NCBI RefSeq assembly: GCF_011683955.1
Contig: NZ_JAAQPI010000011.1
Location: 1 to 64,000, forward strand
DNA: 64,000 nucleotides
Direction of reading: 5' to 3'
Source of the DNA: Pseudomaricurvus alkylphenolicus
GTDB taxonomy: Bacteria > Pseudomonadota > Gammaproteobacteria > Pseudomonadales > Cellvibrionaceae
Shown here: piece after piece, positions 53,852-64,000 of the stretch
Layout of the letters: every line of letters starts with the position of its first letter
Position numbering within the stretch: the first letter of the stretch is position 1
Notes under the pieces: model-generated
What the model was told of the DNA's origin: nothing
The model's input: the letters and a program-made list of their open reading frames with translations, nothing else
Database searches by the model: none
Program-made: the position numbers and the translations under genes

Positions 53852-54273
53852 GTGTGGGTTTGTGCCTCAATTGTCAGGTTCTTGGTTGGATGTCGGGTCA
53901 ATAATGGAATGGTGGCCTGCACCAACTTGGTGCGGGCCGGGCTTTTGGCACTTAATCTCTCGTTACCACGGTGCTTATTTATTTAGGCGTCAACTTCGGA
54001 AAACACGCGACACTGGCACACTTTTCTACCTTTAACTGTGATCGGTTCCACTTTTGTTGGTGGGTGCTTACATCTGCTGCGATCGTGGTCACATCTGGCC
54101 TGATGTTGCCTTTATTGGCTTGACGGTGGGGTTAAAATGGAACTTTTCACAGAGGTGTTCGTCAAAAGCTTGGCGAACCGCGCATTTTTAGGTATAAACC
54201 TTGCTCTCATTGCTCAAGAGTCGCCCAGCGCGGTTCAAGAATAAGCCATAAGAAGGGCATTAGGGGAATAACA
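53852..54273. other. Intergenic region with a structured segment
   Basis: No gene is supported in these 422 bases. Near the right end, GAACCGCGC at 54175-54183 pairs with GCGCGGTTC at 54228-54236, extended by CTTG and CAAG outside it, just upstream of the small ORF at 54274. The stem would fit a structured leader or a small RNA. No tRNA-like fold is seen. Confidence 0.4.
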
Positions 54274-54414
54274 ATGAAATTAGACGTACTTACTGTGGCA
54301 GTGTTTGTTTTTGCCGTCGGGGTCATGGCCAGCGCTATGGATTTAAGCGAGGCTTTTGCCGACGAACCTCTGCCTCCGACAGCTCTGCAGCAAGGTACTA
54401 CCGCTCAGCGCTGA
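54274..54414 (+). CDS. Very small exported or membrane peptide
   Basis: An ATG preceded by TAGGGGAATAAC opens a 46-codon frame. The peptide has a hydrophobic stretch (LTVAVFVFAVGVMASAM) that could be a signal peptide or a single membrane anchor. A short polar tail follows (DEPLPPTALQQGTTAQR). I do not recognise it. A stem upstream (54169-54239) and palindromes downstream suggest it is transcribed on its own. Confidence 0.45.
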   Translation: MKLDVLTVAVFVFAVGVMASAMDLSEAFADEPLPPTALQQGTTAQR

Positions 54415-54651
54415 TCGTGATATCGGCCTGGTATGGATGCCGGGCCTGTTGACTTCTCCCTCCAAGCACTCTCTTTATCCAAACACTGTCTTAACAATCT
54501 GGCGCGGTCACGTCGGCGTTCCCGTGCGTGGGAAGATCCGCGTTAGGGAGGAATAGGTAGCGGGCCCGATACCGCTGGGCCCACCGGCTTCGTCAAAGCT
54601 CCCCTAATCAGCTTTGGCGACGAAGAGGGTCGGTCGCCTAGACGGGGTCGC
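54415..54651. other. Intergenic palindromes and 13-base tandem repeat
   Basis: GGGCCC at 54562-54567 pairs with GGGCCC at 54577-54582. AAAGCT at 54595-54600 pairs with AGCTTT at 54610-54615, with CGTC and GACG outside. GGTCGCCTAGACG occurs at 54632-54644 and again at 54646-54658, and the second copy carries the stop codon of the minus-strand gene. No gene is seen. Confidence 0.5.
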
Positions 54652-54933
54652 CTAGACGCGAAATTCCATCTGCTCGGATCCGCTGGCCAGTCGCGAGAAG
54701 ATGCCAACGCAATCGATGGTTTCGGGGCGGCTGTTGTCGCTGGAGATGGCATCGACCTGGTCGATGCTGATACCGCCGGCGTTCAGTTCCTGCATTTTGC
54801 GAGCCGCAAGTTTACGCAGTACGCCACCGCTGGATTGAAACGGGTCTGCGTGGAACTGGGCGCAGTAGCGTACCCAGAATTGTTCACCGGTGTTGGACCA
54901 GTGAGCCAGTGAGAAGTATCCGCGATATACCAT
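54652..54933 (-). CDS. Small soluble protein, unrecognised
   Basis: The ATG at 54933 with GGAG upstream gives 93 residues; an earlier in-frame start at 54945 is less likely. The protein has no signal peptide or membrane helix. Motif-like stretches are YRGYFSLAHWSNTGEQFWVR and a C-terminal CVGIFSRLASGSEQMEFRV. I recognise no family. Its TAG stop lies in a 13-base tandem repeat, so a duplication may have set the C-terminal end. Confidence 0.55.
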   Translation of the reverse strand: MVYRGYFSLAHWSNTGEQFWVRYCAQFHADPFQSSGGVLRKLAARKMQELNAGGISIDQVDAISSDNSRPETIDCVGIFSRLASGSEQMEFRV

Positions 54934-55104
54934 AAATAACTCCAACCAACGGGCTTGTGGCCCGTGAAAGTTTGTAGTGACGGGGTAAGGCGTCGCTACA
55001 GATCTGTCATTACCTGAAGCGGTGGGTTCCGCTGCTCAGGTGTGTTCAATATGTCAGTGAATGGCTGAATGCTGACTGAATAGTACCAGCTGGTCAGCCA
55101 ATCG

Positions 55105-56196
55105 TTAATCCTGGTGATTGATGTAGACCCTGGGGGTTCGCAGGGGCATGCGGGTAATCAGCTCGTAGCCAATGGTACCCGCTCGCTCAGCGATGTCATT
55201 GACCGCGAGCTGTTGTCCCCAACACTCTACCTCGTCACCTACCTGTACGACGGTTAAGTCCGTCACATCCACAGTAATCATGTCCATAGAAACGCGACCG
55301 GCCAGTTGTGCCTGTTGGCCATTGACCATAATGGGGGTGCCGTTGGGGGCGTGGCGGGGGTAGCCATCGCCGTAGCCCATGGCTACGGTAGCAATCACGG
55401 AGCGGCGCTGGGCGATCCAGCTGCGGCCGTAGCCGACGGTTTCACCGGGTTCTATGGTGCGCAGGCCAATGATTTTGGACTTGAGAGTCATCACTGGCTT
55501 GAGTTTGTCCGCTTCGGGGTGGCTGCCCGGGAAAGGCGAGGCGCCGTAGAGCATGATGCCGGGGCGGTTGTAATCGCCGCGGGATTGTTCCCAGCCCAAT
55601 ATGCCAGCGGAGTTGGCCATGCTGACGGGGGCGTTAATGCCTTCGGCCATGGCGGCAAAGTTGTCGATTTGTTGCTGGGTAAAGTCGCTGTCCAGTTCAT
55701 CGGCGGCGGCAAAGTGGGTCGCCAGGACGATGTCGTTGTCTACATGGGGGAGTGGTTGGAGTTTCTCCCAGGACTGACGCAGTTGTTCGTCCATGAGGCC
55801 CAGGCGGTGCATGCCGGAGTCGGCTTTGAGCCAGACCCTTACCGGAGTATCGATTTCGGCGTTGGCAATCATGTCGACCTGCTCGGGGCCGCTGGCCATC
55901 AACCAGAACTCTTGTTCGCTGGCGGTCTTAACTTCGTCGCTTTCAAACGGGCCTTCAAGCAGAAGAATGGGTTTGCGAATACCGGCTTCGCGCAATTCAA
56001 TGGCTTCCTCGATACAGGCGACAGCGAGGGCGGGAGCCAGAGGCTCCAGAGTTTTTGCCACTTCCACGGCGCCATGACCATAGGCGTTGGCCTTTACCAC
56101 ACCCAAGGTCTGGGCGGAGGGCGCCAGGCTCTGCGCCAACTGAAAGTTGTGGCGCACGGCGGCGAGGTCAACAATGGCTTGGGCGGGACGACTCAT
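55105..56196 (-). CDS. alr: Alanine racemase
   Basis: The ATG at 56196 gives 363 residues, the usual length. The PLP lysine is in VVKANAYGHG near residue 35, and the second catalytic Tyr region is ETVGYGRSWIAQ. The C-terminal beta domain ends GYELITRMPLRTPRVYI. It interconverts L- and D-alanine for peptidoglycan or catabolism. It follows the D-amino-acid aminotransferase gene on the same strand (gap 268 bases with repeats), an unusual but meaningful neighbourhood. Confidence 0.96.
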   Translation of the reverse strand: MSRPAQAIVDLAAVRHNFQLAQSLAPSAQTLGVVKANAYGHGAVEVAKTLEPLAPALAVACIEEAIELREAGIRKPILLLEGPFESDEVKTASEQEFWLMASGPEQVDMIANAEIDTPVRVWLKADSGMHRLGLMDEQLRQSWEKLQPLPHVDNDIVLATHFAAADELDSDFTQQQIDNFAAMAEGINAPVSMANSAGILGWEQSRGDYNRPGIMLYGASPFPGSHPEADKLKPVMTLKSKIIGLRTIEPGETVGYGRSWIAQRRSVIATVAMGYGDGYPRHAPNGTPIMVNGQQAQLAGRVSMDMITVDVTDLTVVQVGDEVECWGQQLAVNDIAERAGTIGYELITRMPLRTPRVYINHQD

Positions 56197-56322
56197 GGCA
56201 TCAATCTCGGTTATAAAATGCCCGCCGTGGTGGGCCACGGCGGGCTAAGATCGCGGTATCACCGCTATTTCGTCTTGCAATCAGTAATAAATTCTATTTT
56301 GTCACACAGCTTCACCACACAG

Positions 56323-56437
56323 CGTAGGGGGGATTAGCGAAGCGTAATCCACCTTTGACTGGGAATCTGCCACATCATCGGTGGATTCCAACAGTAGGCG
56401 CTTTAGGCGACGGCTTCGCCTAATCCACCCTTCTACG
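56323..56437. repeat. Inverted pair of short palindromic repeats (BIME-like)
   Basis: The first unit at 56323-56353 reads CGTAGGGGGGATTAGC and returns as GCGTAATCCACC. The second at 56380-56437 reads GGTGGATTCC and returns through CCTAATCCACCC to CTACG in the opposite sense. The family and the paired layout match 41544-41730. The pair occupies most of the gap between alr and the aminotransferase gene. Confidence 0.7.
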
Positions 56438-56464
56438 TGAGAACGTGATGTAACAAAGCAGTTA

Positions 56465-57322
56465 TTAGTAATCGTACTTGCTGGCGCTGTAGAGTTTCTG
56501 AGCGGCTTCCCATACGTCGCCGATCTGACCGTTGCCGATGGGCTTACCGTCCACTTCAACCACCGCGGCGATTTCTTTGGAGGAGGAGGTCACCCATACT
56601 TCGTCAGCGGCAAACACTTCTTCCATGGTCACGATGCGCTCTTCGACTTTGATGGAGCCATCTTTGCGCAAGATGTCCAGCAGCATGTAACGGGTAATAC
56701 CGGGCAGGATCTGGTTGTCCAGTGGTGGTGTGGCAACTACGCCGTCTTTCACAACGTAGGCGTTACAGGCAGAGGCTTCGGTCAGTTCGTTGTTGGCATT
56801 GAACAGCAGGGTTTCGTTGGCGCCCTGAGAGTAACCGTGCTGAAAGTGCATGACATTGCCCAGCAGCGCAGTGGATTTAATGTGGCAGCGTTCCCAGCGC
56901 AGGTCGCGGGTGGTGCTGACTTTGTAACCCTTGGCCTGGGTTTTGTCGGCAACCGGTGCAGCGGGAATTTCAAAAGCAAAAGCGAAAACGGTGGGAGGTA
57001 CGCCTTCCGGGTAAGCGTGGAAACGTTTGCTGTCGGCACCACGGCTCACGTGCAGGTAGATACCCAGGTTGCCACTGCCGTTTTTTTCGATCAGCCCCTG
57101 ACACACGTCACGCCATTGCTCCACAGACCAGTTAAAGTCGATGCCGATTTCACGCATGCCATTGTTCATGCGTTCGATGTGGGGGGCGAAACCTACCAGC
57201 TTGCCGTCGTAGGAGGGAACAACTTCGTAGATGCCATCGCCAAACAAAAAACCGCGATCCATGGGGGAGATTTTCGCCTCTTCCATTGGCATAAATGAAT
57301 CATTCAGGAAAACAATGCTCAT
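56465..57322 (-). CDS. D-amino-acid aminotransferase (class IV, D-alanine transaminase)
   Basis: The ATG at 57322 with AAAGGTGACACC upstream gives 285 residues. The protein is a fold-IV PLP aminotransferase. Typical segments are RGFLFGDGIYEVVPSYDGK near 23-41, the PLP lysine in CHIKSTALLGNVMH near 147, and ELTEASACNAYVVKDGVV. The length and FGDGIYEVV resemble Bacillus D-alanine transaminase more than branched-chain enzymes. D-alanine plus 2-oxoglutarate to D-glutamate is therefore likely, but a 4-amino-4-deoxychorismate lyase-like or branched-chain role is not excluded. Confidence 0.85.
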   Translation of the reverse strand: MSIVFLNDSFMPMEEAKISPMDRGFLFGDGIYEVVPSYDGKLVGFAPHIERMNNGMREIGIDFNWSVEQWRDVCQGLIEKNGSGNLGIYLHVSRGADSKRFHAYPEGVPPTVFAFAFEIPAAPVADKTQAKGYKVSTTRDLRWERCHIKSTALLGNVMHFQHGYSQGANETLLFNANNELTEASACNAYVVKDGVVATPPLDNQILPGITRYMLLDILRKDGSIKVEERIVTMEEVFAADEVWVTSSSKEIAAVVEVDGKPIGNGQIGDVWEAAQKLYSASKYDY

Positions 57323-57369
57323 GGTGTCACCTTTTATCTCGGGCACGCGGGGCCCGTTCAAAACGTCTG

Positions 57370-57385
57370 TTATCAATGGGGCAAA
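57370..57385. promoter_or_regulatory. Motif shared with the pxp upstream region
   Basis: TTATCAATGGGGCAAA on the plus strand lies 48 bases before the aminotransferase start. The complement strand at 62641-62657, upstream of the DUF1445/pxp genes, reads TTATCAATTTGGGCAAA. Two control regions of one gene cluster sharing this motif could mean one regulator, such as the LysR protein between them. Confidence 0.35.
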
Positions 57386-57431
57386 CTTTATCATAGGGGT
57401 TTGGGAGAAAAATAAGTGATCTCCCACTTTA

Positions 57432-57479
57432 TTAGACGATTCCCCGGATAAGGGGGGCAAAAATCGAGAAATCGTCTAA
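57432..57479. promoter_or_regulatory. Long inverted repeat between lysR and the aminotransferase gene
   Basis: TTAGACGATT at 57432-57441 and AATCGTCTAA at 57470-57479 are perfect inverted repeats of ten bases separated by 28 bases. CCCC and GGGG near the centre can pair as a nested stem. It may be an operator for the aminotransferase gene or a transcript end for lysR. Confidence 0.45.
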
Positions 57480-57536
57480 ATTGCCGATAGGACAACCAGA
57501 ATAGGCAGTCGGAAATGGTCAGTGGGTTTCGCTGTG

Positions 57537-58430
57537 TTATTCGCCGCTGATAATGTCCCGGCTGCTGTCGGCGAGTAATCGCGGCAGGATGCGATCATCA
57601 TCCATGCGCCAGTTACTGCTGAAGTCGAGCGCCGGAGGTGGCTGCACGGTATCCAGCTCCATCAGTTGTTCCTGTTCCAGACAATCCGCCACCAGCGGTT
57701 TGGGCAGGAGGGTTATACCCAGACCCTGTCTTGCCAGGGTCAGCAGGCTTTCCACTGAGCTGCAGGTGTGCAGCATGGGCCGGCTGTCGGCCAGGGGCCG
57801 GAAGAAGTCTTGCAGGTACTGCCAGGGGCGGGTGTTGCGGGGGAAGCTGAGTACCGGAAAGCGCGCCAGTTGGTCCAGCTCCAATGTACCCGACAGGCTG
57901 CTATGCTCATCGAGTAACATGGGAGCGGCTACCCAGCATTGCTCATAACTGCACAATGGTTGGCTGGCCATGGCATTGGAGTGCTCACGGGCGACCATCA
58001 GGGCGAGGTCCAGTTGGTGATTTTCCAGCTGCTTTTGCAGATTGGTGGAGATATCCACCGCGATCTCGAATTCGATCAGCGGGAACTGCTCTCGCCAATG
58101 GCTGAGCAGTGGCCCCACCCACAGATAGGCGAGGGTATCGGCAATACCAACTTTAATGTTGCCGGTCTCGGGCACTTCCTCGCTGATCTGGTTTTTCATT
58201 TCACGGCTGATGGCCACCAGTTTTTCGGCGTAGGGCAGCAACTGCTGGCCGCGGGCTGTAAGACGGGTGCCGCCAGTGTCGCGAATAAACAGCTTCACGC
58301 CGAGTTCTGATTCCAGGGCGGCAATCCGTGCTGATACCGCCGGCTGGGTAGCGTGCAGTTGACGGGCCGCGGCGTGGAAGCTTTCCAGGTGCGCCACCTT
58401 AACGAAGGTCATCAAATTTCGAATTCGCAT
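57537..58430 (-). CDS. LysR-family transcriptional regulator
   Basis: The 297-residue protein has an N-terminal winged helix (AARQLHATQPAVSARIAALE at about 21-40) and a LysR substrate-binding domain (from about 90, PETGNIKVGIADTLAYLWVG). It sits between the D-glutamate cyclase-like gene and the aminotransferase gene on the same strand, so it is the natural local regulator of the cluster. The inducer could be a D-amino acid or 5-oxoproline, but this is inference. Confidence 0.93.
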   Translation of the reverse strand: MRIRNLMTFVKVAHLESFHAAARQLHATQPAVSARIAALESELGVKLFIRDTGGTRLTARGQQLLPYAEKLVAISREMKNQISEEVPETGNIKVGIADTLAYLWVGPLLSHWREQFPLIEFEIAVDISTNLQKQLENHQLDLALMVAREHSNAMASQPLCSYEQCWVAAPMLLDEHSSLSGTLELDQLARFPVLSFPRNTRPWQYLQDFFRPLADSRPMLHTCSSVESLLTLARQGLGITLLPKPLVADCLEQEQLMELDTVQPPPALDFSSNWRMDDDRILPRLLADSSRDIISGE

Positions 58431-58507
58431 AGTTCGATCCCGTTATCCACGTTAAACCAGGCCCGCAAGGAGCGTTTATCTATATCTTTGAGTACTGCGG
58501 CGGACGA

Positions 58508-59374
58508 TCAGGCAAACCCGGTCGCTTTGCGCAGTTCCTCAATCACACTAATCCCCTCGGAGGCGGGCATGCCGTCCTCAGTGAGGGTGTTCTCTCTGCT
58601 GACGCCATCGACACTGCCGCGCTCTGACAGGTACTGCAGAATTTTGAGGCTGTCGATCTCGCCCAGCAGATCTTTCTGTTCCCACCAACCGAGCATGGCG
58701 ATCAGGCCATGAGCGGCCCAGTTGGATACGTCCGCAATCACCAGTTCGGTACAAGTAGTGGCGGCGGGAACAATGTTCAAATTCTGCAGGGCATCGGAGA
58801 TATTGCCCATGCCGATTTCGTTGCCGCCGTCGCCGATGGCAATGGTGGGGCAATCCGCCTGCTGCAAGAAGGTATCAAAGCAGGCGGCGCGAGGGCTGAT
58901 GTCTTCGCCACGCATGTTGTAGTAGTTGCCATCGGCAGCCATGCCGGGACGTTCGATGGAGATAATCAACTCAGGTTGCAGGGCGGTCAGTGCCGATCTG
59001 GCTTCCTGCTCGCGCTCGCTGTGTGGTCCAACGATGATTTCCTGAATCCGATAGGTATCTGCCAATGCAGTAGACAGGGGCGCACCGCAGACAATCACCG
59101 GTTTGGCGCCCAGGGTTTCGAGTGCATCATAGAGGGCGATAGCGCCCACGGGGCCATCCGTTTCAAAAGTATCCACAACCGGGAAGCCGGTACCGATCAG
59201 AACGGTTGCGCCTTTTTGCTTATCCGTAACGGCTTTGATCAAACGTGCGGCACGGCGATAGTATCCGGCTTCCAGTGCCGGCTGCACGTCTTTCATGCCG
59301 CGCGGATTGCGGGCCACCAGAATGTCTTCGATCTGTTGGCTCAGGTCCTGTTCGTTAATGCTGGTATTGCTCAT
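58508..59374 (-). CDS. DUF4392 protein, D-glutamate cyclase C-terminal homologue
   Basis: The 288-residue cytosolic protein matches DUF4392. Its segments TGFPVVDTFETDGPVGAIAL, SIERPGMAADGNYYNMRGED and AIGDGGNEIGMGNISDA are typical of the family. In mammals this domain forms the C-terminal part of D-glutamate cyclase (DGLUCY), which turns D-glutamate into 5-oxo-D-proline. The DUF1445 half is encoded separately at 61762-62550. It lies ten bases after pxpC on the same strand and is probably in the same operon, supporting a role in the 5-oxoproline route. Activity of the split pair is untested. Confidence 0.87.
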   Translation of the reverse strand: MSNTSINEQDLSQQIEDILVARNPRGMKDVQPALEAGYYRRAARLIKAVTDKQKGATVLIGTGFPVVDTFETDGPVGAIALYDALETLGAKPVIVCGAPLSTALADTYRIQEIIVGPHSEREQEARSALTALQPELIISIERPGMAADGNYYNMRGEDISPRAACFDTFLQQADCPTIAIGDGGNEIGMGNISDALQNLNIVPAATTCTELVIADVSNWAAHGLIAMLGWWEQKDLLGEIDSLKILQYLSERGSVDGVSRENTLTEDGMPASEGISVIEELRKATGFA

Positions 59375-59383
59375 AAGACTTCT

Positions 59384-60325
59384 CTAATTCTCTTCAACCG
59401 CTTCCAGTTGCGCTGCACCAAAGCGACTGTGCGCCAGGTTCAGGGCGTTGTGAGCGCAATCGATGGTGATGGCACTAAAGTTGACTTTGCCGCCGGGCAT
59501 CAGCTGGGCCAGTTTGGCCAGATCCAGAGACAGCACGGAACCAATCTTGGGGTAGCCACCAATGGTCTGGCGGTCATTCATTAATACGATGGGTTGCCCG
59601 TCGGCGGGAACCTGGATGGCACCCAGGCAAATTCCCTCGGACAGGATTCCCTCGATACTGGAAACCACCTGCGGTCCGGTCAGGCGATAACCCATACGGT
59701 CACAGCGCTCGCTCACCTCAAAGGTGTTGTGGAAAAACAGACGCTGTTGCACCCGATCGAAGGTGTGTTCCTGATAGCCGGGAATGACTCGCAGGGTGAT
59801 CTCGTTGCTGTACTCGGGGCGCTCGTCTTCGGGGACTTGCCAGAGAGACTCGCTGGTGTCGGGGTTACAGGCAATCTCATCACCTGCTTTCAGGGGGGCG
59901 CCGTCAAAACCGCCCAGGCTTTCGCGCACAACGGTTGCGGTACTGCCAAAGCTGGGGTCCACCTGGAAGCCGCCCGCGACTGCAATATAAGCTCTGCAAC
60001 CGTTGGTGGTGTAGCCAAGCTCCAATGTGTCGCCGGACTTAAGAATATGGGTCTGCCAGCGTTCCGCTTCCGCGCCGTTGATCTTTAGCGGCATTTCACC
60101 GCCGGTGACGGCGACGCGGGTATCGACATTGACCTGGAGCTTGAGTCCACCCACGCTGACTTCGATGGCGGTAGCACCGGGCTCGTTTTCGCAGAGCCGG
60201 TTGGCCCAGTGAAACGCCAGCGGATCCATAGGGCCGCCATTGGTGAGACCGATCTGGTGTTTACCGAAACGACCGGCGTCCTGCAGCAGGGCCAGAATGC
60301 CGGGGTTGATAATCTTCACACTCAT
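59384..60325 (-). CDS. pxpC: 5-oxoprolinase subunit C
   Basis: The 313-residue protein belongs to the biotin-dependent carboxyltransferase-like (KipA/AHS2) family. It has NPGILALLQDAGRFGKHQIG at residues 7-26 and later QTIGGYPKIGSVLSLDLAKL near the C terminus. With PxpA and PxpB it forms ATP-dependent 5-oxoprolinase. Its ATG overlaps the pxpB stop (ATGA), which implies coupled translation. Confidence 0.94.
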   Translation of the reverse strand: MSVKIINPGILALLQDAGRFGKHQIGLTNGGPMDPLAFHWANRLCENEPGATAIEVSVGGLKLQVNVDTRVAVTGGEMPLKINGAEAERWQTHILKSGDTLELGYTTNGCRAYIAVAGGFQVDPSFGSTATVVRESLGGFDGAPLKAGDEIACNPDTSESLWQVPEDERPEYSNEITLRVIPGYQEHTFDRVQQRLFFHNTFEVSERCDRMGYRLTGPQVVSSIEGILSEGICLGAIQVPADGQPIVLMNDRQTIGGYPKIGSVLSLDLAKLAQLMPGGKVNFSAITIDCAHNALNLAHSRFGAAQLEAVEEN

Positions 60326-61017
60326 TCGATACCTCCCTCGGGCAGTTCACCGCCCAGCGCTAAAAACTCCTCCCGTTCAATGGATTTGAAACGTACCCGA
60401 TCACCCACGGTGACCGGCATGGTGGGTTCAGCCTGGGGATCGAACATGGGCGTGGGGCAAAGACCAATCAGATTCCAGCCACCAGGAGAGACCGCTGGGT
60501 ATACAGCAGTTTGTTGGTCGGCAATGGCAACGGCGCCTTTGGGAACCTTCTGACGGGGAGTGCTTAAGCGGGGTGCGGCAATGCGCTCGTTAACCTGACC
60601 CAGATAGGCGAAACCAGGCGCAAAGCCAATCGCGTATACGCGATATTCATCGCCCTGGTGCAGATCGATCACCTCTTGCACGCTCATTTGTGCGCGGTCT
60701 GCCAGTGCGGCCAGATCGGGACCGGATTCTTCAGAGTAATACACGGGCAGTTCTACCAGGCGACCTTCGCCTACCACAGCATCGTTATCATCACCGGCGG
60801 CGCTGTGTATTGCTTGACGCACGGCCAAATGGTCGGTCAGCAATGGATTAAACAGCACCAATAGCGAGGCGTAAGAAGGTACCAGATCAATCAGACCGTC
60901 ACCCAGCAAGCCGGGCAGACGCTGGGCAGTCTGTTGAACCCGCGCGGAGATGGTGGGACTGGTCTCCTCCCCGAAATAAATGATCAGGGCGTTTTCGCCC
61001 GCGACGTGAATCTTCAT
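60322..61017 (-). CDS. pxpB: 5-oxoprolinase subunit B
   Basis: The 231-residue protein is of the KipI/AHS1 family, recognised by AIGFAPGFAYLGQVNERIAA and TAVYPAVSPGGWNLIGLCPT. It works with PxpC and PxpA in ATP-dependent opening of 5-oxoproline to glutamate. Starts and stops of pxpA-pxpB-pxpC overlap by four bases each. The KipI name comes from a sporulation kinase inhibitor in Bacillus; this gene is clearly in the metabolic context. Confidence 0.94.
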   Translation of the reverse strand: MKIHVAGENALIIYFGEETSPTISARVQQTAQRLPGLLGDGLIDLVPSYASLLVLFNPLLTDHLAVRQAIHSAAGDDNDAVVGEGRLVELPVYYSEESGPDLAALADRAQMSVQEVIDLHQGDEYRVYAIGFAPGFAYLGQVNERIAAPRLSTPRQKVPKGAVAIADQQTAVYPAVSPGGWNLIGLCPTPMFDPQAEPTMPVTVGDRVRFKSIEREEFLALGGELPEGGIE

Positions 61018-61748
61018 GCCGTGATCAGCTCCCGGATGGCTTCAATTGCTTGCACGCCTTCCATATTGTCGCCATGTACGCACAGGGTATCAGCCTGCAG
61101 GTTGAGGGTGTGGCCACTGACGGTAGTGATGGTGCCTTCGTCATTGAGCTGCTTGACCTGAGCCAGCATTTTTTCGCGCGTGTGCACGGCACCGGGCTTG
61201 GAACGGGCCAACAGGCGGCCATCATCGTCGTAACAGCGGTCGGCAAAGGCTTCAAAGTATAGTTTCAGGCCTCGGTTGGCGGCTTCTTCCCGATGCAGGT
61301 CGGCATTGGGGGTGGCTTGCAGCATCAGACGGATGGGGCGGTGGTAAGCGGCCATGGCGTCCATGATGGCGTGGCGAACAGCGTCCTTGGCCATCATGTC
61401 GTTGTAGAGCGCACCGTGGGGTTTGGCGTAGGCCAGCTCCAGGCCCTGGCTGCGGGCCATGCCATCGAGTGCGGAGATCTGGTAGGTAATAAATGCTTTG
61501 ATCTCGTCGCCAGAGCAGTTCATGGAGCGGCGGCCGAAACCCACAAGGTCCGGGTAGCTGGGGTGAGCACCGACGGTAACTTCGTGTTGTTTGGCCAGGG
61601 TCAGGGTTTTGTTGATCACCAGAGGATCGCCACCGTGAAAGCCACAGGCGATATTGGCCTGGTCTATGTGAGGCATAACGGCCTCGTCCATGCCCATTTT
61701 CCAGGAGCCGAAGCTCTCGCCCAGGTCGCAGTTGAGTAACAGTGCCAT
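61014..61748 (-). CDS. pxpA: 5-oxoprolinase subunit A (LamB/YcsF family)
   Basis: The ATG at 61748 gives 244 residues; the frame beyond it is shadow of the DUF1445 gene. The family signature LNCDLGESFGSWKMG lies at the start, with HIDQANIACGFHGGDP at about 27-42 and VGAHPSYPDLVGFGRR after it. The protein provides the LamB/YcsF subunit of 5-oxoprolinase. It lies 13 bases after the DUF1445 gene, so the whole block from 62550 down to 59384, probably to 58508, is one transcript. Confidence 0.95.
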   Translation of the reverse strand: MALLLNCDLGESFGSWKMGMDEAVMPHIDQANIACGFHGGDPLVINKTLTLAKQHEVTVGAHPSYPDLVGFGRRSMNCSGDEIKAFITYQISALDGMARSQGLELAYAKPHGALYNDMMAKDAVRHAIMDAMAAYHRPIRLMLQATPNADLHREEAANRGLKLYFEAFADRCYDDDGRLLARSKPGAVHTREKMLAQVKQLNDEGTITTVSGHTLNLQADTLCVHGDNMEGVQAIEAIRELITA

Positions 61749-61761
61749 AAGTCTCGTCTCC

Positions 61762-62550
61762 TTACAGGATTGCCAGGCGGCTATTGGGCAAATCGGATAC
61801 CACCATGCAGCCGGGGCTGTGGGTGATGCAGAAGGGGGGCTTGGCTTCCATGATGGCGGCCTGTGGAGTAACACCGCAGGCGGTAAAGACGGGAACTTCG
61901 CCGTCTTTGATGGTGACAGCGTCGCCATAGTCGGGACGGCCTACATCAGGAATACCTATATCTTCCGGGCTGCCAAAGTGTACCGGCGCTCCGTGTACTG
62001 ACGGGAAGCGCGAGCAGATCTGGATCATGCGGATGGCGTCGGCCGGCACGAACGGACGCATGCTGACAACCATGTTGCCTTTGAAGCGACCGGCGGGCTG
62101 GCAGGCGATGTTGGTGTCGTACATGGGGACGTTAACCCCTTCGGCGATGTTGCGAATTTCGAGGCCGTCGGCCTGCAGTGCTTCTTCGAAGGAGAAGGAG
62201 CAGCCAATCAGGAAGGTGACGAGGTCGTCACGCCAGACGTCGGAGATGTCGGTAACTTCCCGGGCGAGTTCGCCGTTTTCCCAGATGCGGTAGCTGGGTA
62301 CGTCGGTGCGGATGTCAAAATCGGGGCCGATGGTGCCGATGTTGGTTTGGCCGGGTTCTGCGGCCATGGCTACAACGGGGCAGGGCTTGGGGTTGAGTTG
62401 GCAGAATTGGAGGAATTCTGCGGCCCAGTCTTTGGGCAGGATTGCGACGTTGCACTGTACATATCCATCGCAGTAACCGGAGGTGTTACCGGTGTGTTCT
62501 CCGCTGCGGATCCGGGCGCGCAGCTCGCTGGGGGTCAGTGGTGCAGACAT
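61762..62550 (-). CDS. DUF1445 (YcsI/UPF0317) protein, D-glutamate cyclase N-terminal homologue
   Basis: The 262-residue protein matches the YcsI family (UPF0317, DUF1445), often called putative hydro-lyase. It has [20 protein letters not shown] at residues 24-43, [20 protein letters not shown] and a C-terminal [18 protein letters not shown]. In mammals DUF1445 is the N-terminal half of DGLUCY, so this and the DUF4392 gene are the two halves of one enzyme encoded separately. It is the first gene of the pxp operon. Confidence 0.9.
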
Positions 62551-62640
62551 CTATCATCCTCTCAAGTCGATTCACGGTCGGTCGCGGTCTATTTGGCCGG
62601 CTATTTTCGAGGGCGTCGATGGTGGTGTCCAATTCAGGTT

Positions 62641-62703
62641 TTTGCCCAAATTGATAATTTTCTTTTATCAAGGGTAGTTGTTGGGCGGAAATTTGTCCAA
62701 ATT
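62641..62703. promoter_or_regulatory. Candidate operator region of the DUF1445-pxp operon
   Basis: Two direct copies of TTTGYCCAAATT lie at 62641-62652 and 62692-62703. A perfect seven-base inverted repeat, TTGATAA and TTATCAA, lies at 62651-62671 between them. All are 90-155 bases upstream of the operon's first start codon at 62550. The near-palindromic ATTTGTCCAAAT fits a dimeric regulator. Confidence 0.4.
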
Positions 62704-62836
62704 CTGAGGTTTTTTGTGAGTGGTTGTGGACAGGTTGTTGGTTTTGTTTATCAGTTTTGGGGGTGAGAGCGGGAAAAGAGCTTTCTGTTCGGTGCCATTA
62801 GAGGTTGTTGTGGGGTATCTGGGGAGCTTCTTGTTG

Positions 62837-62996
62837 GGTGCCTCAATCGGTGGCTGGGGGAGTCATTTTCGGAGCTGGTCGGCGGCCCTCCGGGCTTCCC
62901 TCAGTTACGAAAAAGCCAAGCAAACGGCGCTTGTCTTTTTCGTGCCTTCGGCGCTCTCCTTTTACGCTCCGAAAATAACTCCCCCAGCCACCTTGG
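62837..62996 (+). repeat. Structured hairpin element, copy 3
   Basis: It opens with GGTGCCTCAATCG, then a left arm at 62849-62875 that pairs with a right arm at 62966-62992 at 26 of 27 positions. The inner hairpin pairs CGAAAAAG 62908-62915 with CTTTTTCG 62935-62942, and CAAGC 62917-62921 with GCTTG 62929-62933. The arms are 90 bases apart. The right flank differs from copies 1 and 2. It lies between the ODP-like gene and the pxp operon; open frames across it on both strands are not called. Confidence 0.8.
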
Positions 62997-63053
62997 CTTT
63001 TGTGAGGCGTTGGGTGTGGTGCCCTAAAGGTCATGGGGTCAGACTCCTTGGTC

Positions 63054-63788
63054 TTAGGAAACCGCGACTCCCACTTCCAACCCCTCAAACCAATCCAGGA
63101 ACCGCTGAATATTATCCCCTGTAAAAATACGCCCGTGCTGGGGCGCCATGATGTCAATATCCATCTGCCGGACCCGGTTGATCCAATCCAGTTTGGCCCG
63201 GTTGGAGGGCATCCAGCGCTGGTGGAATTTGCGCATCTTGGGGATATGCTGGTCAAAGTTGTCCACTTCCATGGGGGCGTTGATGTCTTCCAGTGCCGCT
63301 CCCACATCACCGCTCATCAGGACCTTGGCGTGGGGATCGTAGATATGGAAGTTGCCGGAGGAGTGCAGGTAGTGAGCGGGCACCATTTCGATTTCGACAC
63401 CGCCGAGGTTGATGACGCCACCGGTGTCGGCAATCGGGTTGTAGGTGATGTTGTTCATGCCGAAGTGGCGAATAAAGCCTTCCCACAGCCAGGGGGAGTG
63501 GAGTGTGGCTTCGGGCAGTGCCTGGTCCCAGAGGCCCAGGGAGGAGATGATGTCCGGGTCCTGGTGGGAGGCGAACAGATCGGTGAGCTCTTCCAGGGAG
63601 ACTTCCCGCAATACCGCGGCAAGCATGGGGGCAAACAGTTCGATGCCACCCGGGTCCATCAGCAGCGCCCGCTGCCCCGCTCGCAGGAGGTATTGGTTGG
63701 TATCGATAATTTTATCGGGCTTGTTGGGGTCGCGCCCAAACATCAGCCACTGGGTTTTGGCGCTGGAGGCGAGTTTGTGCACTTTCAT
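63054..63788 (-). CDS. ODP-type metallo-beta-lactamase-fold diiron protein
   Basis: The ATG at 63788 with GGAAGATTGACACTC upstream gives 244 residues. The fold is that of flavodiiron/ODP proteins. The first metal motif is SHQDPDIISSL near 97-107, then AHYLHSSGNFHIYDP, SGDVGAALED and a final PQHGRIF. ODP proteins bind oxygen at a diiron site without a flavodoxin domain, and in some bacteria act as oxygen sensors for chemotaxis. A partial gene upstream on the same strand may be its partner. Confidence 0.85.
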   Translation of the reverse strand: MKVHKLASSAKTQWLMFGRDPNKPDKIIDTNQYLLRAGQRALLMDPGGIELFAPMLAAVLREVSLEELTDLFASHQDPDIISSLGLWDQALPEATLHSPWLWEGFIRHFGMNNITYNPIADTGGVINLGGVEIEMVPAHYLHSSGNFHIYDPHAKVLMSGDVGAALEDINAPMEVDNFDQHIPKMRKFHQRWMPSNRAKLDWINRVRQMDIDIMAPQHGRIFTGDNIQRFLDWFEGLEVGVAVS

Positions 63789-63803
63789 GAGTGTCAATCT
63801 TCC

Positions 63804-64000
63804 TTAATAGTGGTGGTGCAGGTCGTCGGTGGCTTCCACCAGCAGCTGCTGGGCGGACTGCAGGTGTTGTTTGATTTGGTCCGCGGCGTTGGCAATGTTG
63901 GTGGCGATCACTTCGAGCTGCGGTTTAAAGCTGCCCGCCTGGGAGGCTTCCACCTTGGAGGTGCTGGAGATGATGGCCGCCGCTCGAATTTGCTGTTGGG
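63804..64000 (-). CDS. C-terminal part of a gene cut by the window edge
   Basis: The minus strand is open from the window end to a TAA at 63804-63806, giving 64 residues. They are helical and rich in Gln and Ala (KQHLQSAQQLLVEATDDLHH, ATNIANAADQI), with a pattern like the signalling helix bundle of chemotaxis receptors or similar coiled coils. The stop is 15 bases before the ODP start, so the two genes are cotranscribed. Assignment needs the missing N terminus. Confidence 0.6.
   Translation of the reverse strand, partial: QQQIRAAAIISSTSKVEASQAGSFKPQLEVIATNIANAADQIKQHLQSAQQLLVEATDDLHHHY

Follow-up and report, generated by a model that had tools for sequence, protein, structure and literature searches.

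Positions 55105–62550 of a 64,000-nucleotide stretch of DNA from the gammaproteobacterium Pseudomaricurvus alkylphenolicus (contig NZ_JAAQPI010000011.1, positions 1 to 64,000; the whole stretch is called the window here) carry eight genes, all on the minus strand, which bring together two domains of the animal D-glutamate cyclase, the three subunits of 5-oxoprolinase, a LysR-family regulator, a D-amino-acid aminotransferase-like protein and an alanine racemase. An earlier reading of the same DNA (the original prediction) had placed these eight genes on one strand and chained their family activities into a recycling or catabolic route from alanine over D-glutamate and 5-oxoproline to glutamate. 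The positions and identities of the genes match that reading and were confirmed by coordinates and family models. From the first gene of the operon onwards, the cluster comprises:

61762–62550, minus strand: DUF1445 protein (PF07286, D-Glu_cyclase), first gene of the operon; PF07286 at 221.9 bits, NF003969, structures 3db9 and 2pif
61014–61748, minus strand: pxpA, 5-oxoprolinase subunit A (LamB/YcsF); NF003816 at 339.5
60322–61017, minus strand: pxpB, 5-oxoprolinase subunit B; TIGR00370 at 169.6
59384–60325, minus strand: pxpC, 5-oxoprolinase subunit C; TIGR00724 over the cut-off, NF045499 below
58508–59374, minus strand: DUF4392 protein (PF14336, GLUCM-like_C); 232 bits, six metal-binding acids retained
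57537–58430, minus strand: lysR, LysR-family regulator; family match, gene and operator co-occur
56465–57322, minus strand: dat, D-amino-acid aminotransferase-like class IV aminotransferase; PF01063 and nearest PDB sequences
55105–56196, minus strand: alr, alanine racemase; the only alr of the genome over the cut-off

The block from DUF1445 to DUF4392 is tight, with a gap of 13 bases, two overlaps of 4 bases and a gap of 9 bases at the successive junctions. Beyond DUF4392 the gaps widen to 77 bases before lysR, 214 before dat and 268 before alr. The description of the cluster as compact thus applies to the five genes up to DUF4392, or six with lysR, and less to dat and alr, which nearly touch each other in many relatives, unlike in the window genome. 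The listed open reading frame of pxpA extends upstream to 61928, and its start at 61748 was taken from the fit to relatives; the starts of dat and alr were likewise selected by comparison with relatives.

Both DUF proteins pass their Pfam models clearly (PF07286, 221.9 bits with a cut-off of 25; PF14336, 232 bits with a cut-off of 27.9), and the DUF1445 protein also passes NF003969, 'putative hydro-lyase' (408.8 versus a cut-off of 324). PF07286 is the N-terminal and PF14336 the C-terminal half of animal D-glutamate cyclase (DGLUCY), whose domain layout is given in PMC5132392. DGLUCY holds both domains in one protein; in the window they reside in two genes with pxpABC between them, and the cluster proteins are therefore not filed as DGLUCY itself. 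Six metal-binding acids of the DUF4392 protein (E71, D73, E141, D182, E186 and D267) align with those of TON_0340 in all six positions and were invariant across the 12 and 17 sequences compared. In a fold comparison of the DUF1445 and DUF4392 models, no racemase or cyclase was among the 50 matches listed for each, and beyond their own families (2pif and 3db9 for DUF1445, TON_0340 for DUF4392) only poor matches were obtained.

PxpA and PxpB exceed the cut-offs of NF003816 (339.5 versus 213) and TIGR00370 (169.6 versus 145.55). PxpC passes the broader model TIGR00724 (269.9 versus 230.2) and stays below the equivalog model NF045499 (216.5 versus 500). For Dat, PF01063 gave 163.9 bits, the best nine PDB sequences were D-amino-acid aminotransferases, and R100, H102 and K149 were retained in 13 of 13 sequences compared. 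R100 and H102 presumably form the R-x-H carboxylate-binding motif. Its scores remain under the NCBIfam cut-offs for D-amino-acid aminotransferases (NF005209, 254 versus 320; TIGR01121, 240.1 versus 277.45) yet far exceed those of branched-chain models, and for this reason we name it D-amino-acid aminotransferase-like. This assignment, rather than a branched-chain one, is what the original prediction had proposed, and an aminotransferase of the branched-chain kind, named there as a refuting result, did not turn up.

We then asked how far this neighbourhood is conserved. DUF4392 occurs in 12 of 58 genomes, the window genome counted, and in eight of the other 11 DUF1445, pxpABC, DUF4392, dat and alr lie together, five of these also with lysR. 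In genome G014, dat and alr are not adjacent to the cluster and are paired elsewhere on the same contig, and G033 has the cluster without an adjacent alr. Reduced forms were also seen: pxpA-DUF4392-dat-alr without DUF1445, pxpB and pxpC in G039 (locus L030, 7642–11173), and DUF1445-DUF4392-dat without pxpABC in Reinekea marinisedimentorum (L108, 9208–11727); in both genomes pxpB is located elsewhere. A scan of named genomes covered the best 80 of 494 relatives and is therefore biased towards close relatives; G002–G004 are duplicated by three of the 80. Among the DUF4392 loci with 4 kb of upstream DNA, DUF1445 was present in 64 of 66, as was each of pxpA, pxpB and pxpC; the exceptions were L055 (without DUF1445 and pxpABC), L081 (without DUF1445) and L108 (without pxpABC). 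Where 4.5 kb of downstream DNA could be read (74 loci), dat was found in 63, lysR in 32 and alr in 26, the alr counts at loci omitting weaker matches of less than 45 percent identity. The 11 loci without dat include Leucothrix, Cocleimonas and Thiothrix. DUF1445, pxpABC, DUF4392 and dat occur together in 51 of the 63 loci with both flanks, and in 20 of these alr is present too. A gene order recurring across many genera is more than chance, and the conserved neighbourhood, a check set beforehand for the predicted pathway, was thus found.

Outside near kin, DUF4392 is infrequent: it was detected in 2 of 281 evenly drawn Gammaproteobacteria and in 11 of 397 Pseudomonadota, each count including the window genome. 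In the 10 other genomes of the latter sample, dat adjoins DUF4392 in G563 and G493, and DUF1445 adjoins it in these two as well as in G660 and G632. Looser links are a dat about 8 kb away in G632, DUF1445 some kb away in G640 and G749, and pxpA and pxpB some kb away in G420. G479 showed only a weak class IV aminotransferase match at the far edge of the stretch, and in G503 and G433 no cluster partners were detected near DUF4392 within the stretch examined. DUF1445-pxpA-DUF4392-dat was also seen on a plasmid of Pseudoalteromonas. In its tight form, the cluster thus belongs mainly to Gammaproteobacteria. No transporter was among the core families of the 80 loci; non-core families each occurred in at most 14 of 80, and rarer neighbour families were not named. 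A description of the cluster was not found among the matches listed in the literature searched, which largely excluded subscription journals. The parts are known, and their joint conserved arrangement appears to be new as far as that literature goes.

The operon is preceded by a candidate regulatory site:

62652–62670, minus strand: probable LysR operator TGATAA-N7-TTATCA, 101 bases before the DUF1445 start

This sequence ahead of DUF1445 is common to four aligned genus members. A survey of 88 loci (window excluded; L032–L034 dropped as duplicates of G003, G004 and G002) found the operator, allowing two mismatches at most, in 27 of 29 lysR-bearing loci with readable upstream DNA, 15 of them exact, versus 2 of 43 loci without lysR; since the loci are kin, the p value of this association (3e-15) overstates its significance. 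Leaving out the three discovery loci, the operator remained in 24 of 26 lysR-bearing loci (12 exact). The spacer of 7 bases was found in 25 of 29 lysR-bearing loci at up to one mismatch, and spacers of 3–6 and 8–12 bases in none of the 29. A version of the operator with a spacer of 8 was tried and proved negative; the alignment of the four genus members gives 7. Probably, the LysR protein activates the DUF1445 operon via this site, and the regulator noted in the original prediction is accompanied by an operator of the LysR type. In the window, the operator is centred about 65 bases before the guessed transcriptional start site, the usual place for LysR activator boxes. The promoter match behind this guess was no commoner than in shuffled sequences; the four genus members nevertheless share the region of its first hexamer. 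For dat, the counts do not support a preceding operator (6 of 34 versus 2 of 41 loci, p 0.13).

Where the cell obtains D-glutamate for its wall bears directly on the role of dat and alr. In the window genome (8.88 Mb, completeness 99.59 percent) no murI exceeded the TIGR00067 cut-off, and MurL was not searched for there; Dat is present. The two weak TIGR00067 matches are PF01177 racemase-like proteins, and there is one alr over the cut-off plus one weak match. With a single alr and murI absent above the cut-off, we read Alr-Dat as biosynthetic and not only as the start of a catabolic chain. Judged from gene content, Alr-Dat is most likely the D-glutamate source for peptidoglycan in this cell instead of MurI. 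The chain put forward originally fits as a chain; the word catabolic suits its second half only, and the first half is more likely biosynthetic.

The distribution of murI and Dat is consistent with this assignment. In comparisons uncorrected for kinship, murI was missing in 6 of 12 DUF4392-bearing versus 4 of 46 other genomes (Fisher p 0.003), a Dat relative accompanied 46 of 46 murI-less versus 19 of 34 murI-bearing genomes, and among 281 Gammaproteobacteria the corresponding numbers were 166 of 185 and 40 of 96 (odds ratio 12). The second comparison covers the 80 genomes searched out of 108 at a threshold of E 1e-35; its 15 murI-bearing genomes without a Dat relative are G071 and 14 family relatives chosen as controls, and in the murI-less genomes G038, G050, G051 and G076 the Dat relative is only a more distant one (38 to 42 percent identical). 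In the third, murI was under the cut-off in most of the sample (185 of 281), and a Dat relative of more than 50 percent identity was found only in the window genome (G000), G318 and G376. In 19 of the 185 murI-less Gammaproteobacteria there was no Dat relative either at E 1e-35. Among the named DUF4392-bearing genomes, two of which duplicate G002 and G004, murI was missing in 36 of 50, completeness not being given, so that some absences may be gaps; for records not titled uncultured or MAG (metagenome-assembled genome), the fraction was 18 of 29. Marinobacterium jannaschii, Neptunomonas antarctica and Aliamphritea spongicola are among the murI-less ones, and their genomes contain a second Dat-like gene. 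In G001, G014, G033 and G039, Dat is present although TIGR00067 gave nothing even at E 0.001.

Our preferred reading, held with slightly better than even confidence, is that the cluster serves as a D-glutamate supply-and-drain module. Alr would make D-alanine, and Dat would transfer its amino group to 2-oxoglutarate, yielding D-glutamate for peptidoglycan in place of MurI. Surplus or recycled D-glutamate would be drained by the LysR-controlled operon, in which DUF1445 and DUF4392, as separated halves of the animal D-glutamate cyclase, would close it to 5-oxoproline and PxpABC would open the ring to glutamate, driven by ATP. We infer all of these reactions as well as the direction of flow.

Neighbourhoods outside the window bear on the second half of this scheme. 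pxpABC adjoins dat in G046 and G376, both without DUF4392, and in G046 alr is adjacent too. In the trees, the G046 pxpA belongs to another branch, so that the link between 5-oxoprolinase and Dat cannot be put down to a single frozen accident. The cluster-linked rows of both PxpA and PxpB fall close to one another (two label changes versus about ten in shuffles) without forming a single clean branch, in trees with many long unlinked rows. On Paracoccus and Lactiplantibacillus plasmids, DUF1445 adjoins 5-oxoprolinase genes, with no annotated DUF4392 or dat within the stretch shown, and on an Acidovorax plasmid it accompanies a TRAP transporter and a hydantoinase/oxoprolinase-family gene. In G479 (L179, 9754–14711), DUF4392 lies one gene from murD-like and murL-like genes, the mark of a second type of D-glutamate pathway that does without MurI; the murL-like gene scores 267 with the MurL model, whose cut-off is 700. 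DUF4392 thus appears to track D-glutamate and DUF1445 5-oxoproline. At about 30 percent identity, distant members of the DUF4392 family have different neighbour genes, so that a common substrate for the whole family need not be assumed. On an Agrobacterium plasmid (L174, 3980–12981), a distant DUF4392 gene occurs with threonine/serine dehydratase and RidA genes, and with genes of the beta-hydroxyaspartate cycle further on, which suggests another DUF4392 substrate there. G640 (L181, 5180–15901) contains a 3573-codon open frame with two DUF4392 stretches, followed by DUF1445 and a lysR-like gene; by eye, the part between the two stretches resembles an Asp/Glu racemase.

Several observations speak against the supply-and-drain module. 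The cluster and murI occur together in 6 of 12 relatives and 14 of 50 named genomes, so that murI loss is not required, and four of five same-genus relatives carrying the cluster possess murI, which argues against a strict tie to murI loss; the cluster may permit such loss rather than follow from it. DUF4392 is rare among murI-less Gammaproteobacteria (carried by 2 of the 281 genomes sampled), and Dat is under the NCBIfam cut-offs. For one DUF4392 protein, TON_0340, weak Mn-dependent phosphatase activity was reported (PMC5132392). Mouse DGLUCY converts D-glutamate to 5-oxo-D-proline (PMC5339696), which favours the cyclase step proposed here; PxpABC activity was reported on 5-oxo-L-proline (PMC13274462). 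Opening of 5-oxo-D-proline retains the stereocentre; L-glutamate requires an inversion for which no cluster gene is known. Because ring opening of the D form regenerates D-glutamate, either the centre is inverted somewhere, or the operon works in salvage, or the DUF proteins have a different substrate. This objection had been raised with the original prediction and has become sharper, as cyclase and PxpABC would constitute an ATP-wasting loop if both act on the D form. A second, L-specific PxpABC, which would imply a D-specific copy in the cluster, was considered and rejected: exactly one pxpB over the cut-off was found in 49 of 49 DUF4392-bearing genomes (G058 duplicates G004), at a site apart from DUF4392 in G039, G071 and G086. 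Contig 10 of the window genome (L153, 6877–10809) holds a second, weak and divergent set, whose pxpA- and pxpB-like genes are separated by a gap and which includes a pxpC-like gene.

A way around the loop, possible though doubtful, is that the operon is a one-way ATP-driven converter of D- to L-glutamate, in which DUF1445, DUF4392 or PxpABC would invert the centre of 5-oxo-D-proline before it is opened to L-glutamate. If true, such a converter would stand in for MurI running in reverse, and might account for murI loss in lineages holding the operon. In salvage, PxpABC would open 5-oxo-D-proline derived from D-glutamate back to D-glutamate for the wall, with DUF1445 and DUF4392 working towards ring opening or on a different substrate. 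This route needs no inversion and agrees with G046 and G376, where pxpABC adjoins dat and both DUF1445 and DUF4392 are missing from the neighbourhood. We regard it as unlikely, since a cyclase from the same operon would undo it and ring closure is probably the favoured direction. Similarly unlikely is a nutrient or recycling route, by which external D-amino acids or those from wall turnover would pass through Dat to D-glutamate and through the operon to glutamate, the wall being supplied from elsewhere. A LysR regulator suits an inducible route, and half of the cluster-bearing relatives have murI, so that Dat is not needed there for supply; the window genome, with one alr and no murI over the cut-off, must nevertheless draw on some source, and no transporter was seen among the core families of the 80 loci, the rarer neighbour families being unnamed.

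Two further explanations were weighed. PxpABC might only clean up L-5-oxoproline in its usual role, DUF4392 being a phosphatase or other enzyme and dat-alr unrelated neighbours. The substrate reported for PxpABC (PMC13274462), the phosphatase report (PMC5132392) and the one pxpB in 49 of 49 genomes, whose single enzyme may serve an ordinary purpose, fit this explanation. We consider it quite unlikely, as two observations point to D-glutamate: dat is joined to pxpABC and DUF4392 time and again across many genera, and DUF4392 has murD- and murL-like neighbours in G479. Very unlikely in our judgement is that another enzyme, such as MurD2-MurL, a bifunctional DapF or a YgeA-like racemase, and not Dat, supplies wall D-glutamate. 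MurL (PMC8788868) and bifunctional DapF (PMC5885031) are known elsewhere, and the window genome encodes two racemase-like PF01177 proteins that score under the MurI cut-off; the four genomes without any TIGR00067 match but with Dat (G001, G014, G033 and G039) argue against it.

Among known systems, the Bacillus subtilis gene ycsI is one that we take to be a DUF1445 gene. The ycsF-ycsG-ycsI-kipIA operon of this organism resembles the window in combining pxpABC subunits with ycsI (PMC10448178). Compared with PxpABC operons, the window cluster adds DUF4392, dat, alr and a lysR gene; pxpTABC of Corynebacterium glutamicum comes with a transporter and a regulator of the GntR type (PMC13274462), where the window cluster has LysR. 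Animal DGLUCY (9030617O03Rik / C14orf159) shares both domains and the metal-binding acids with the window proteins but is a single protein instead of two with pxpABC genes between. DGLUCY already appears in a table of human proteins whose bacterial relatives are split (PMC11580864; its row '0, 6' read as full-length, split). Dat as a substitute for MurI is a known second D-glutamate route for peptidoglycan (PMC8788868), and the window differs from it in that dat is physically joined to a possible D-glutamate outlet. MurD2-MurL is likewise MurI-free but inverts a bound residue, so that free D-glutamate is not needed (PMC8788868).

Two further DNA elements lie within the cluster:

57370–57393, minus strand: TGATAA-N12-TGATAA direct repeat in the lysR-dat gap, function uncertain; a match occurred in 12 of 100 window shuffles
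56220–56245, minus strand: G+C-rich hairpin of 11 pairs (10 G-C) just before alr, from a pattern scan

The hairpin is a possible terminator or attenuator; the scan yielded 15 terminator-like sites versus 9.1 in shuffles. Rfam gave no match over gathering scores in 54000–64000. An ODP-family protein with a metallo-beta-lactamase fold (PF19583) is encoded at 63054–63797 on the minus strand, some 500 bases upstream of the operon, and is not among the families conserved with the cluster.

With this cluster, the bacterial DUF1445 and DUF4392 proteins gain a concrete, testable role. To our knowledge, no roles have been assigned to the two domains of mitochondrial DGLUCY. The operator offers a direct handle for identifying the effector of the LysR protein, be it a D-amino acid or a 5-oxoproline. 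Finally, MurI falls below the cut-off in most Gammaproteobacteria of the sample, and its absence goes along with a Dat relative; both points matter for MurI as a drug target.

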